Below are positions 24,205 to 34,790 of a stretch of 64,000 nucleotides of DNA, one piece after another. The stretch spans positions 7,378,001 to 7,442,000 of the forward strand of contig NZ_CP036274.1 of the NCBI RefSeq assembly GCF_007747655.1, read 5' to 3'. The notes under the pieces are model-generated. The model was not told the DNA's origin and searched no databases. It saw only the letters and a list, made by a program, of their open reading frames with translations. Numbering within the stretch: the stretch's first letter is position 1; the number at the start of each line of letters is the position of its first letter. Origin of the DNA: Anatilimnocola aggregata. Lineage in GTDB: Bacteria > Planctomycetota > Planctomycetia > Pirellulales > Pirellulaceae. Made by a program: the position numbers and the translations under genes.

Positions 24205-27147
24205 TCACGAGTTAACCACCAGCGAATTCAGCAGCTTCTCGAGCATCCCCGGGTCGACTGGCTTGACCAGGTGATAGTTAAAGCCAGCTTCCTTCGAACG
24301 TTGGCGGTCTTCATCTTGCCCCCAGCCAGTGAGAGCGACGAGATAGATCTTCTTGCCCCACTCTTGTTCGCGAATGCGGCGGCAGGCCTCGTAACCATTT
24401 AAGTTTGGCATGCCGATATCGAGCAGGATCACTTCGGGGCGAAACTCCTCCGCGGCAGCAACAGCTTGCAGGCCATCGTGCGCCATCCGCATTTCATTCC
24501 CCATGTACTTGAGCATGAGGGAGAGACTGGTGGCAGAGTCGACATTGTCGTCGGCCACCAGAATCTTCCGTTTAGGCCTGTTGCTGGCCGACTTGATTGC
24601 CGCCGCGGGTGCGGCCTTTTTCGCGATCGGATCGACGACTGGCAAACGAACCGTGAATACGCTGCCGCGATCGTCCCCTTCGCTGAGCGCCGTGACTGTG
24701 CCGCCATGCATGTCGACCAGTCGGCGCACGAGCGTGAGGCCAATGCCCAAACCACCCTGCGCGCGTTCGAGAGTGCGGTCAACCTGCGTGAACATGTCAA
24801 AGACTTTGGGGAGCATGGCGGCAGGAATGCCCAGGCCGTTGTCGGTGACGGTGACGACAACCTCATCGCCGCGACGCTCGGCGTGCAATTGAATCTTGCC
24901 GCCGCGGGTGGTGTACTTGGCTGCATTGTTCAGCAGGTTCGAAAACACCTGAGCTAGGCGCACCAGGTCGGCGTCGAGCAAGATTGGTTCACTTGGCATT
25001 TCGACCGTCAGGTTGTGACCGCAGGATTCAATTAACGGGCGACTTGTTTCGACCGCGCTGCTGATGACTGTGGCCAGTTCAACGCGATCTTTCCGCAATT
25101 CCAGCTTGTTGCGTGTAATACGGCTGACGTCGAGTAAGTCATCGACCAGCCGCACCATCTGGCCGAGTTGCCGTTCCATCATCGTCCGCGTTTGAATGAC
25201 GGTGCTATCGGCCGAACCGGCAATTTTCAGCACCTGCAGGCCGTTGCTGATGGGTGCGAGTGGATTGCGCAGTTCGTGAGCCAAGGTAGCGAGAAACTCA
25301 TCCTTGCGACGATCGGCCTCAGACAAGTCAGCAGCCAGCTGTCGCAGTTCGTCGGCCATCTTACGCTGCTCGGTCACATCGGTATTGGTGCCGAACCAAT
25401 GCAACACTCGACCCGTTTCATCGCGAATCGGTACAGCCCGAGAAAGAAACCAGCGGTATTCGCCCTCCTTGCTCCGCAGTGGAAACGTATCCTCCCACTG
25501 CTCGCCCTCAGCGACCGCCTGCTTGTATTTGGCAACAACGCGGTCCAGATGATCGGGATGATGGACCTGCTGCCAACCCCAGCCCTGCATCTCTGCGGGC
25601 GTGGTGCCGGTGTAGTCGTACCAGCGCTGGTTGTACCAGAACAACGCGCCGTCCGAGTCGGCCATCCACGCTAGCTGAGAGATGTTATCGGCCAGCGTGC
25701 GGAAGTGCTCTTCGCTTTGCTTGAGCGCTGCCATGGCCGTTGTGAGGTCAGCCATTCGCCGTTGCACACGATCTTCCAGATCGTCGTTGATCCGCTTCAA
25801 TTCAGCTTCGGCCTGCTTGCGGAATGTGATGTCGTGCATGGCGACCACCGCGCCAAGCAACTCGCCGCGATCATCGTGAAACGCTCTACCACTCGCGGCC
25901 AGAGTGCGGGGCGCTCCTTGCTTGGGAGCAATCACCATTTCGACGTCGACCAGGTTCTCGCCCCGCAATGCGCGAAACAGGGGAACCTGATCCATCGCCA
26001 TTCGCGACGCTCCATCCGCCTGGAATAAGTCGTAGTGGTCGGCCCATTGCTCGGCCGGAATTTGCGTGAGTGGCAAACCATGAAACTCACGCGTGGCTCT
26101 GTTGAACAGAGTGAGAACTCCCTGCTGATCGCAGGCCACAATCCCGACCTGAATACTTTCGAGCAATGCCTGCTGAAACCGATTGGTAGTAGCCAGTTCT
26201 TTGGTCCGCATCTCGACTCTGCGTTCCAGTTCTGCGTGAGCGCGAATTAGCTCGTTCTCTTGTTCCTTGCGCTCGGTGATATCGCGGAATACCAGCACTG
26301 CGCCTGCAATGCCGCCGCGGGGATCGCGAATTGGTGCTGCGCTATCATCGATTGGCCGCTCGGTGCCATCCTTGGCAATGAGCACAGTATGATTCGCCAG
26401 CCCCACGATGACTCCCTCACGCAGGGCGCGCAGCGCCGGGTTGTCGACCGGTTGGCGAGTCGACTCGTTGACGATGTTGAACACCGTTTCGAGCTGAACC
26501 CCCCGGGCTTCCTCGTTGGTCCAGGCGGTTAATTGTTCGGCCACCGAGTTGAGAAACGTCACTTTGCTGTTGATATCGGTGGCGATTACCGCATCTCCAA
26601 TACTCGCCAGCGTCGTGTGCAGCAGCTCGCGTTCGGCTGCCAGTTCGGTCATGGCTTGCGATAATTCGAGTGTCCGTTTCTCGACCCGCTGTTCCAACTC
26701 AGCATTGGTCAGTTGAAGTTCGTTCTCGGCCTTGGTACGGGCGGCAATCTCTCGTTCCAGTTCCTCTGGCGCGCGCATCGCTAAGACGCGCGGCACCACT
26801 TGCACGAGTGCCACCACAGTTCCCCACGAGACCACGGCCGTCACAAACTTCAGCACGCCGGCGAAGCGATAGATGGGCCACCAGAAAATGGCTGCATCGA
26901 CGAGATGGGTCGCCCCACACAACAAAATGAACGCGCCGAACAAGACGAAGATGCGGCGAAAGGGAAGATCCTTCCGTTGCACAATAAAGTAGATCAGCAC
27001 CAGGGGAATGGCGAAATAAGCAGACCAAATTCCCAGGTCCGAAAGGATATGCAGCCAGCCCAGCCAGGGAGACTCCGACCAGCCAGGCCCGCAGCTCCAA
27101 CGGGCTGGGAATCCCGCGGAGTCGAAGAGCCGAAACAAAAAGGACAT
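24205..27147 (-). CDS. Hybrid sensor histidine kinase with an ethylene-receptor-type N-terminal domain
   Basis: A 980-residue hybrid kinase; the start ATG 27147 has AGGGG five bases upstream. Three membrane helices occupy about residues 34-56, 63-88 and 95-117. They reproduce the plant ETR1 ethylene-binding residues at identical spacing: D37, Y44, I47, P48, I74, C77 and H81. A coiled coil (about 125-168) leads to three PAS domains (about 170-292, 322-442, 475-594). HisKA follows with H624 in AHELRNP, then HATPase_c (N741, DNGLG 769-773, GGLGIGL 798-804) and a receiver (D866/D867, phospho-accepting D910, T940, K962). C77 and H81 coordinate Cu(I) in ETR1, so ethylene or a similar small ligand is the suggested signal. 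There is no output domain or adjacent response regulator. It is divergent from the TrpF-like gene. Confidence 0.95.
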   Translation of the reverse strand: MSFLFRLFDSAGFPARWSCGPGWSESPWLGWLHILSDLGIWSAYFAIPLVLIYFIVQRKDLPFRRIFVLFGAFILLCGATHLVDAAIFWWPIYRFAGVLKFVTAVVSWGTVVALVQVVPRVLAMRAPEELEREIAARTKAENELQLTNAELEQRVEKRTLELSQAMTELAAERELLHTTLASIGDAVIATDINSKVTFLNSVAEQLTAWTNEEARGVQLETVFNIVNESTRQPVDNPALRALREGVIVGLANHTVLIAKDGTERPIDDSAAPIRDPRGGIAGAVLVFRDITERKEQENELIRAHAELERRVEMRTKELATTNRFQQALLESIQVGIVACDQQGVLTLFNRATREFHGLPLTQIPAEQWADHYDLFQADGASRMAMDQVPLFRALRGENLVDVEMVIAPKQGAPRTLAASGRAFHDDRGELLGAVVAMHDITFRKQAEAELKRINDDLEDRVQRRMADLTTAMAALKQSEEHFRTLADNISQLAWMADSDGALFWYNQRWYDYTGTTPAEMQGWGWQQVHHPDHLDRVVAKYKQAVAEGEQWEDTFPLRSKEGEYRWFLSRAVPIRDETGRVLHWFGTNTDVTEQRKMADELRQLAADLSEADRRKDEFLATLAHELRNPLAPISNGLQVLKIAGSADSTVIQTRTMMERQLGQMVRLVDDLLDVSRITRNKLELRKDRVELATVISSAVETSRPLIESCGHNLTVEMPSEPILLDADLVRLAQVFSNLLNNAAKYTTRGGKIQLHAERRGDEVVVTVTDNGLGIPAAMLPKVFDMFTQVDRTLERAQGGLGIGLTLVRRLVDMHGGTVTALSEGDDRGSVFTVRLPVVDPIAKKAAPAAAIKSASNRPKRKILVADDNVDSATSLSLMLKYMGNEMRMAHDGLQAVAAAEEFRPEVILLDIGMPNLNGYEACRRIREQEWGKKIYLVALTGWGQDEDRQRSKEAGFNYHLVKPVDPGMLEKLLNSLVVNS

Positions 27148-32146: not shown

Positions 32147-34201
32147 CTAGTCCAGAGTCTTGTCCGGCGGAGCGACGGTGCCTTGTTGTGCCGCAGCACC
32201 AACGGCCGGCAGGACCTCGCGGCGTTCGGTTGGCGTCATCCAAAATCGGTAGCCGAAGTCACGTTCGAGGTCGCGCTGCAGGAGAGCCTCAACGGCATCA
32301 TGCGCAAATTGCCGATGAACCAGCTTGGGTGCGTCGAGTTCCTTGATGATCTCCGGTAAGAGCCACTTGGCCTGTTGGCGCTTGGCGGCAGCGAGACCGG
32401 AGAATCGCACAGTTGCAATCGGACTGCTTAAGTATTCGCGCCCGGCAAGATTGTCGGGAGCAATCCCTTTGACATCGTCCTTTGAAAAAGTGCGGCCGTA
32501 CCAGTCGTTTAGCCGCGACAAAGTCCAGGCGGTGCTCTTGTCTAAGTGGCAAAGATTGCACGCATTTGCGCTGCCAGTCAGGACATTGGCAGTATCGGTT
32601 GGAGATGAAATGCGATGCGTTCGCACAACATCTTCCAGCCCCTCAGTCGTGTGTGGCATATGGCAGTTCATGCACCGGTCTCCCCTACTGCCGGCCGAAT
32701 GATGAGTATGAGCCGCGCGCGCGCCTGGCGACGAGAGTTTTTCGTGGCAGCGGAGGCAGCTGTTGTCGTCTTGTTCTGCTGTCTTACCCCATTTAGTACC
32801 AGTCGCCGTGTGGGGTTCATGACAGTCGGTGCACTTAAGCTGCGAATAGCAAGAACCGGCGATCGCGTCTCGAAACTCCGCCGAATTCTTATGCGATTCA
32901 CCGCTGGGATGCAGATCTCGAACGGCCGAGTGGCAACGCCCACAAACATGGTTAATGTTACTGGGCGTGCGACCAAGTTGATTCGCAACGCGCGAAGCTT
33001 CGACGAGATGCGGCGAACATGGAACGAAACGCGGGGGTGCCTTCCCATTCGCCTGCGCATGTTCGCGGCCGCCGAAATGGCATGCCTCGCAACTAATCCC
33101 CAGTGAGACGGTGCGTTCCGCTGATATCTGTCTGCGCATTTCATCGAGCAGCGGCAATAGCTCCTGCTCGTTTAGCGCGGGATGAGTGTTCCCATTGGCA
33201 ACCAATCGAGGCAGCGACTGTTCCAATAGCGGCCAGAGACTCACTTGCAATGGCGACCGATTGCCGGCTGGTGGATAAGTATCAAGCAGCAGGCGATCGG
33301 CCTCGGGCAGAGTAGTGTGGCAGAGGCTACAACGCTCGTAATAACGCACCGGCTTGAAGCGGTCGTACAAATCGAATCCGCTGGTCGGTTGGTCGTGATC
33401 GATGAAGTCGAACACATCGTAGGCCGGCACCCACTTCTTTCTGGTAATCCAATAGCCGACCGGCAGGACAACTTCTTGATCAGGCAACGCACTTTGATCC
33501 ACCGACTGGTCGGGTAGCGGCGCGCCAGCGACGAGCTTCCCCACGTAAAATTGAAAGATGCGGGAACCAATTGTGCGAGAAACGCAGAATGTGCGGTCGA
33601 GGTCGCCGCGTTGTAAGCGTACAAAGCGTTCCTTGTCGCGAGTGAACATCGAGATCACTCCGCCTTGCAATGACAATCGATCGCCCTGGAAGCTGCCAAC
33701 TACCGTCTGGTCGTTCGCCGCGGCGTTCATTCGCGCATGCGGATGTTGCTGCCATTGACGGAACTGCTCAGCATGACACTTCCCGCAACTTTCCGGGCGT
33801 ACATAGTCCTGAAACAGCACATTGCTGAATTCGCTATGAGTCGCATCGGCACGGGCGACTTCGTCTGGAAGATACTTGTAGCACTCCAGCCGTTCATTCA
33901 GAGTGGCCACAATCGGCGATTTTTCAATCGGGAGTGAGACCTGCTCCCCCAGCAGTTGCGGATCCGGGGCGCGAAACATTTGCCAGGCGATGATCGCCAC
34001 GGCCATGCTGACTGCAATTGCCAATATGCCGGTGACTGTTGGCTGATTTAGCTGACGAGGTGTATTTTGACTCGGCGACGATTGCTTGTCAGGCGCAGAA
34101 CTAAGTGCTTTGCCTTTAGCACGTCGAGATTGGGACAAGTTAGACCTCCGAATCAACCCGCCCGAATCAGGACCAACTCTTGAAATTATCCGTGCGACCA
34201 T
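32147..34201 (-). CDS. Eight-haem cytochrome c with membrane anchor
   Basis: A multihaem c-type cytochrome with eight C-x-x-C-H motifs (CGKCH, CSLCH, CEACH, CGRCH, CTDCH, CLRCH, CMNCH, CNLCH). An N-terminal membrane helix (TVTGILAIAVSMAVAIIAW, about 54-72 from the ATG at 34201) anchors it, with the haem domain outside. The C-terminal part after the last haem (about 110 residues) has helical, HEAT-like character and no haem. The motif spacing resembles cytochrome c554/nitrite-reductase-like proteins, but the catalytic haem ligand of those (C-x-x-C-K) is absent, so electron transfer is more likely than catalysis. The start is uncertain: frames are open to 34375 but the extra residues look non-coding. 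Confidence 0.85.
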   Translation of the reverse strand: MVARIISRVGPDSGGLIRRSNLSQSRRAKGKALSSAPDKQSSPSQNTPRQLNQPTVTGILAIAVSMAVAIIAWQMFRAPDPQLLGEQVSLPIEKSPIVATLNERLECYKYLPDEVARADATHSEFSNVLFQDYVRPESCGKCHAEQFRQWQQHPHARMNAAANDQTVVGSFQGDRLSLQGGVISMFTRDKERFVRLQRGDLDRTFCVSRTIGSRIFQFYVGKLVAGAPLPDQSVDQSALPDQEVVLPVGYWITRKKWVPAYDVFDFIDHDQPTSGFDLYDRFKPVRYYERCSLCHTTLPEADRLLLDTYPPAGNRSPLQVSLWPLLEQSLPRLVANGNTHPALNEQELLPLLDEMRRQISAERTVSLGISCEACHFGGREHAQANGKAPPRFVPCSPHLVEASRVANQLGRTPSNINHVCGRCHSAVRDLHPSGESHKNSAEFRDAIAGSCYSQLKCTDCHEPHTATGTKWGKTAEQDDNSCLRCHEKLSSPGARAAHTHHSAGSRGDRCMNCHMPHTTEGLEDVVRTHRISSPTDTANVLTGSANACNLCHLDKSTAWTLSRLNDWYGRTFSKDDVKGIAPDNLAGREYLSSPIATVRFSGLAAAKRQQAKWLLPEIIKELDAPKLVHRQFAHDAVEALLQRDLERDFGYRFWMTPTERREVLPAVGAAAQQGTVAPPDKTLD

Positions 34202-34790
34202 GAAGATTTGGCCGGCAAATGATGAAAATACGGTGAGCTTCAGACTATTTGCTCGGTGCAGCCCTGGTAACGATGGCTGATCCAGCGAAGTCTTACCTCC
34301 GCAAGCGAGCGGCCTCAGTCCCATAGCGTTTGATTCGCGTAGATCGGCGCGCGAAGAACTAAGCCTCGAAAGCAACTAATACTGAATTGATTGCCGATCA
34401 AGCTTGGCGGGAAGGGCCGCGCGTCAAGGCAATCGAATCTTATTCTCCGCAAAAACCGTAGAGAATCCGTTCCAGGAAGTCTTCGTTCCAGCCTGCTTGG
34501 AGTCTTTTGCCCCGCAGGCTTCCTTTTGGAGAAGTGTCACGCTGGAGCACCATCAGCGCCAGCTTGCGAAAGATCGAGGCGACATCTGACGCGTTGCCGG
34601 AGCGGATGCGCGAGCGGTCGTCTGAAAAAATTACATCGAGCGTCCGGTGCAATCTCTCGGTCGGAACCCGAGAGGCCGTCCTCGGAGAGGATTTACTTAT
34701 AGGCGCCTGGTAAACTGCAAAGCCTGTTCAAACTCACCGTCAGCAACGATGGATCACCTCGGAACTAGATTCCGGACAAGCCGTTGACCT
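34202..34790. other. Intergenic region holding only a transposase remnant
   Basis: Between the cytochrome and heparinase genes I find one recognisable element, the ISAs1-type fragment at 34440-34652. The rest shows no gene. I do not see terminal inverted repeats around the fragment. Confidence 0.5.
34440..34652 (-). pseudogene. C-terminal fragment of an ISAs1-family transposase
   Basis: Seventy in-frame residues read HRTLDVIFSDDRSRIRSGNA, then an FRKLALMVLQ helix and GSLRGKRLQAGWNEDFLERIL before a stop. This is the end of ISAs1-type DDE transposases (usual pattern LDVxFxEDxSRxRxGxA, then KRLKAGWDxDYLxxxL). Upstream of the L-H-R start the frame no longer resembles the transposase, so about four fifths of the gene is missing. 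It is a decayed insertion sequence. Confidence 0.75.

Follow-up and report, generated by a model that had tools for sequence, protein, structure and literature searches.

A putative copper-dependent ethylene sensor kinase in the planctomycete Anatilimnocola aggregata and two sequence classes of bacterial ETR1_N domains

The window analysed here, meaning the whole stretch of 64,000 nucleotides taken from inside a single 9.0-Mb contig of Anatilimnocola aggregata, encodes on its minus strand a membrane-bound hybrid histidine kinase that is probably a copper-dependent ethylene sensor of the bacterial ethylene-receptor kind, with ethylene as the ligand that its sequence suggests. The protein belongs to an already known kind of bacterial receptor, and putative ethylene receptors have been described from several bacterial phyla (PMC11819568). 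The new element reported here is that the bacterial ETR1_N domains examined fall mostly into two sequence classes, designated PRW and PHG. The gene, an open reading frame with an ATG start codon, and its parts are as follows.

24205..27147, minus strand: ethylene-receptor-type hybrid histidine kinase, 980 aa (open reading frame and Pfam domains)
27079..27111, minus strand: class-defining N-terminal motif FPARWSCGPGW, residues 13-23, including C19 (motif and class comparison)
26776..27063, minus strand: ETR1_N ethylene-binding-type membrane domain, residues 29-124 (Pfam PF25487, E 2.9e-37)
26263..26646, minus strand: PAS 1, about residues 168-295 (PAS_4; placed via a match to PDB chain 5xgb_A)
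25807..26178, minus strand: PAS 2, about residues 324-447 (PAS_8 at 324-375 and PAS_7 at 329-447)
25363..25689, minus strand: PAS 3, residues 487-595 (best PAS_4 stretch)
25114..25305, minus strand: HisKA, residues 615-678, with the phospho-acceptor box HELRNP at 624 (Pfam and residue check)
24637..24969, minus strand: HATPase_c, residues 727-837, with N, G1 and G2 boxes present (Pfam and residue check)
24229..24564, minus strand: receiver (Response_reg), residues 862-973, with LLDIGMP at 908, VADD at 864, ALT at 938 and KP at 962 (Pfam and residue check)

An earlier note, made from the sequence alone, had described an ethylene-receptor sensor domain on a bacterial hybrid kinase, followed by three PAS domains, HisKA, HATPase and a receiver, in a planctomycete, and all of this holds. 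The ETR1_N match is more than a chance resemblance: it reaches 127.3 bits where the cut-off is 27, and 14 control genomes searched for the family yielded none. Pfam recovers every downstream domain, with PAS_4 matching in three stretches, and the catalytic set is intact, comprising the H box, the N, G1 and G2 boxes, and the acidic pair, phospho-accepting Asp, Thr and Lys of the receiver. The protein therefore has the HisKA, HATPase and receiver of a hybrid histidine kinase, and carries its kinase module behind the membrane domain as members of the ethylene-receptor family do. Between membrane domain and kinase, Pfam found no GAF domain of the kind present in plant ETR1, with three PAS domains there instead. 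Only the extent of the sensor domain needs adjustment: the interval 26793-27147, taken earlier as the complete domain, corresponds to residues 1-118 and misses the last six residues of the Pfam domain.

The seven residues that ETR1 requires for ethylene binding are all in place. D37, Y44, I47, P48, I74, C77 and H81 each equal the ETR1 number plus 12 (D25, Y32, I35, P36, I62, C65 and H69, numbered as supplied in the earlier note), and the identical spacing asserted there is borne out by this constant offset. When the window domain is aligned to an AtETR1 sequence, all seven residues correspond, and K100, past a loop that is three residues shorter, presumably matches ETR1 K91. A conserved lysine paired with the conserved aspartate is described in a review (PMC13012798, section 6). 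Three hydrophobic segments account for the expected three N-terminal transmembrane helices, and an AlphaFold2 model built from 12 sequences places long helices at 27-57, 64-86 and 93-123, although the model is only moderate (mean pLDDT 75.2, pTM 0.58). Searches of solved structures gave a single insignificant match by sequence with the domain alone as query (E 1), and nothing below E 0.001 by fold (best E 1.3). Ahead of the first helix, all 52 proteins of one alignment, a set biased to the motif, have C19. This cysteine lies close to where N-terminal cysteines join plant receptors into dimers, and may form a disulphide bond.

As for the earlier suggestion that the planctomycete may sense ethylene, the domain with its seven residues on an intact kinase stands, and ethylene itself is the ligand we infer. 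Under this reading, each subunit of a dimer would coordinate Cu(I) through Cys77 and His81, and ethylene, a gas that crosses membranes, would bind the copper near D37 and Y44. The resulting change would reach the kinase by way of a coiled stretch and the PAS domains and would affect both autophosphorylation at H624 and the subsequent transfer to D910, the Asp of the fused receiver, which may in turn hand the phosphate on to, or bind, a partner encoded elsewhere in the genome.

ETR1_N domains were detected in 42 of 392 genomes drawn from the phylum of the window, in 18 of 60 relatives of its genome, and in 45 of 146 genomes of Cyanobacteriota, the phylum of a Brasilonema genome discussed below, with 44 of these over the cut-off. 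Scanning public genomes gave 230 confirmed relatives; the best 80 of these, which were retained, are biased to the PRW motif, since the scan used that motif. The genome of A. aggregata itself encodes a second ETR1_N-like kinase of 1031 aa (L132, 8648-11743; match at C1:1064659-1064928) that has four of the seven residues, the copper Cys and the Tyr being among those missing, and a counterpart of this divergent kinase is found in the sister species (L023). Zavarzinella formosa likewise carries a second divergent ETR1_N-like domain (L030, minus strand, 1-1185), with Ile in place of the copper Cys, approximately 7.8 kb from its PRW-class receptor.

The two classes were called from the sequence just ahead of helix 1, which reads RWxCG (FPxRWxCGxW) in PRW and PHGxC (PHGxCYLW) in PHG. 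The window domain, with PARWSCG and no PHGxC, is PRW. In the planctomycete draw, 54 of 56 places were classed (the other two being pieces of one short contig), giving 42 PRW, 5 PHG and 7 neither, whereas the 89 of 107 cyanobacterial places classed, 18 weak ones being set aside, comprise 79 PHG, 2 PRW and 8 neither; all 23 places in the relatives of the window genome were classed, as 15 PRW and 8 neither. This sample covers bacterial places other than SynEtr1, and fungal receptors lie outside it. Both cyanobacterial PRW domains come from one Brasilonema draft genome (L150, L151, L149), which holds two PRW domains, one of them with an internal stop, plus one PHG domain, and which may reflect either contamination or transfer.

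In a tree of 94 selected loci, inferred by a quick method from 98 columns that exclude the class motif and with SH-aLRT as the only support, 30 PHG rows and one unclassed row split from the rest (SH-aLRT 98) and 58 PRW rows with two unclassed form one set (SH-aLRT 96), while 51 of 88 inner branches are unresolved. When 128 PRW domains are compared with 84 PHG domains, the eight positions of the site are nearly alike (JS 0.00-0.04), whereas 19 other positions, some within the motif itself, differ with JS above 0.55. Among these differences are residues 85-88, just past the copper His, which read A, I/V/G/L, I, F in PRW and I/V, W, T, L in PHG; the ETR1 stretch at this place presumably resembles the PHG class. 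The copper Cys and His are retained in 128 of 128 distinct PRW domains and 83 of 84 PHG domains, and all seven residues occur together in 117 of the 128 PRW and 64 of the 84 PHG domains, with about half of the 128 PRW rows originating from the motif-biased scan. In an unbiased set, consisting of all 23 matches among the 60 relatives, 13 of 15 PRW domains carry every one of the seven residues and none of the 8 unclassed domains does. The seven residues thus go with the PRW class and are not merely a requirement of the fold, and the incomplete sets in the unclassed domains and in the second ETR1_N protein of the genome make a functional copper site in the window protein more likely.

The class assignment is also a point against the ethylene reading, as the window domain differs in class from AzoEtr1 and from most cyanobacterial domains. 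Further points against it are the moderate structural model, the lack of a solved-structure match, the absence of ACC deaminase from the genome and the unconserved flanking genes. Alternatively, PRW-class domains may have retained the Cu(I) site while responding to some other small copper ligand, such as a different alkene, an alkyne or carbon monoxide, in which case the protein would operate in the manner of an ethylene receptor but would not be one in the cell. The separation of the classes on columns outside the motif and the positions fixed differently between them, including those immediately past the copper His, are consistent with such a change of ligand, but the likeness of the copper and ethylene positions argues against it, and isolated copper sites of the ETR1 kind would probably bind ethylene anyway; we consider this reading unlikely. 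It is improbable, in our view, that sensing is left to the PAS domains and that the membrane domain serves as a plain anchor or a sensor of copper. Three such domains do follow the membrane domain, and the L132 kinase indicates that the fold can serve without the site. However, an anchor would need none of the seven residues, and the receptor of the sister species (L131), a 555-aa protein made up of membrane domain, kinase and receiver, keeps all seven and, by reading of its translation, has no room for PAS, implying that the membrane domain is the constant element and PAS the variable one. That the gene is a non-functional remnant is very improbable, as the sole point in favour is the lack of a neighbouring partner, against which stand an intact 980-codon frame with all catalytic residues and the intact relative in the sister species.

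The earlier note had remarked that no dedicated output protein lies beside the gene. This is true of the locus, where the neighbours encode a DEAD helicase, a metallophosphoesterase, a PRAI-like protein and a beta-lactamase-family protein and no adjacent regulator, but it is also usual for the receptors examined that carry a receiver of their own. With adjacency defined as the same strand and within 300 bases downstream, a receiver-containing ORF lies next to 1 of the 41 receptors that have a receiver themselves, compared to 16 of the 31 that lack one, and these ORFs are mostly 136-165 codons long. Of 84 loci, 12 were dropped because the frame was incomplete or fewer than 500 bases lay downstream, and the remaining 72 form the sample. 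The difference is significant with kinship ignored (Fisher p 9e-7 for the 72 loci; p 7e-5 within Planctomycetota plus the relatives of the window genome), a kinship-aware test having one usable pair only, and 15 of the 31 receiver-less receptors likewise have no adjacent regulator. By Pfam, Response_reg is present in 44 of 52 planctomycete ETR1_N proteins, the window protein included, and in 0 of 25 from other phyla. The fused receiver is the likely cause of the missing neighbour, and would replace the small adjacent regulator seen after many receiver-less receptors.

None of 11 neighbouring proteins tested matched the L131 locus of the sister species, and among 90 loci there were only stray matches of three of them (DEAD 2, SDR 4, g18418 1); with flanking genes unconserved in the sister species, nothing links the gene to a process. 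A putative multihaem cytochrome c protein with several CXXCH-type matches is encoded at 32147-34375 (minus strand) of the window. Copper ATPases were considered as support and rejected: four in the genome exceed the cut-off, yet they are also present in 13 of 14 controls and are thus non-discriminating.

Comparison with characterised systems places the window protein among known receptors while setting apart its class and architecture. AzoEtr1 of Azospirillum brasilense is a published ethylene binder (PMC11819568) and is our locus L152, recognised from the published initial codons and a length of 525 aa. In direct alignment, 42 of 96 core positions are identical to the window domain and, as with ETR1, the seven positions correspond (7 of 7 in common), and both proteins have an N-terminal ETR1_N domain with these residues followed by PAS and histidine kinase. 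AzoEtr1 differs in being a PHG-class protein of 525 aa with one PAS domain and, according to the same paper, a separate adjacent 135-aa regulator (PMC11819568), whereas the window protein has 980 aa, the PRW motif, three PAS domains and a fused receiver. In the plasmid-collection copy of the A. brasilense Sp7 record NZ_CP012915.1, the AzoEtr1 gene has no annotated feature. SynEtr1 of Synechocystis is likewise a bacterial ETR1_N kinase and published ethylene receptor (PMC6682694, PMC7700396), but combines a GAF domain with a separate regulator located downstream (PMC7700396), and cyanobacterial relatives differ in class, 79 of 89 being PHG in a sample to which SynEtr1 itself does not belong. 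Arabidopsis ETR1 shares the seven residues and the lysine, the three membrane helices, the kinase and the receiver, and differs in having GAF where the window protein has PAS (PMC13012798, PMC6586836). Kinases of the same class occur in other planctomycetes and in Bacteroidota, including locus L027, Zavarzinella formosa (L030), Blastopirellula marina (L057) and Mucilaginibacter (L067); these differ in the number of PAS or GAF domains, and the planctomycete ones are mostly hybrid kinases. Searches of openly accessible papers gave no binding test of any PRW-class protein.

Bacterial ethylene sensing has so far been published for few organisms. If the window protein binds ethylene, such sensing would extend to planctomycetes and to a class also found in Bacteroidota. 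If it fails to bind ethylene, PRW and PHG would constitute a natural experiment, with the same copper-site residues in different surroundings, that would reveal what makes a copper site ethylene-specific. A broader proposal, which we put forward tentatively and regard as doubtful, is that PRW-class ETR1_N domains may represent a second and ancient lineage of copper-based gas receptors in Planctomycetota and Bacteroidota, mainly on hybrid kinases in Planctomycetota, in which the site was kept and its surroundings were tuned to another ligand or affinity. Were this true, the receptor of the plant hormone would count as one side branch within a wider family of bacterial gas sensors.
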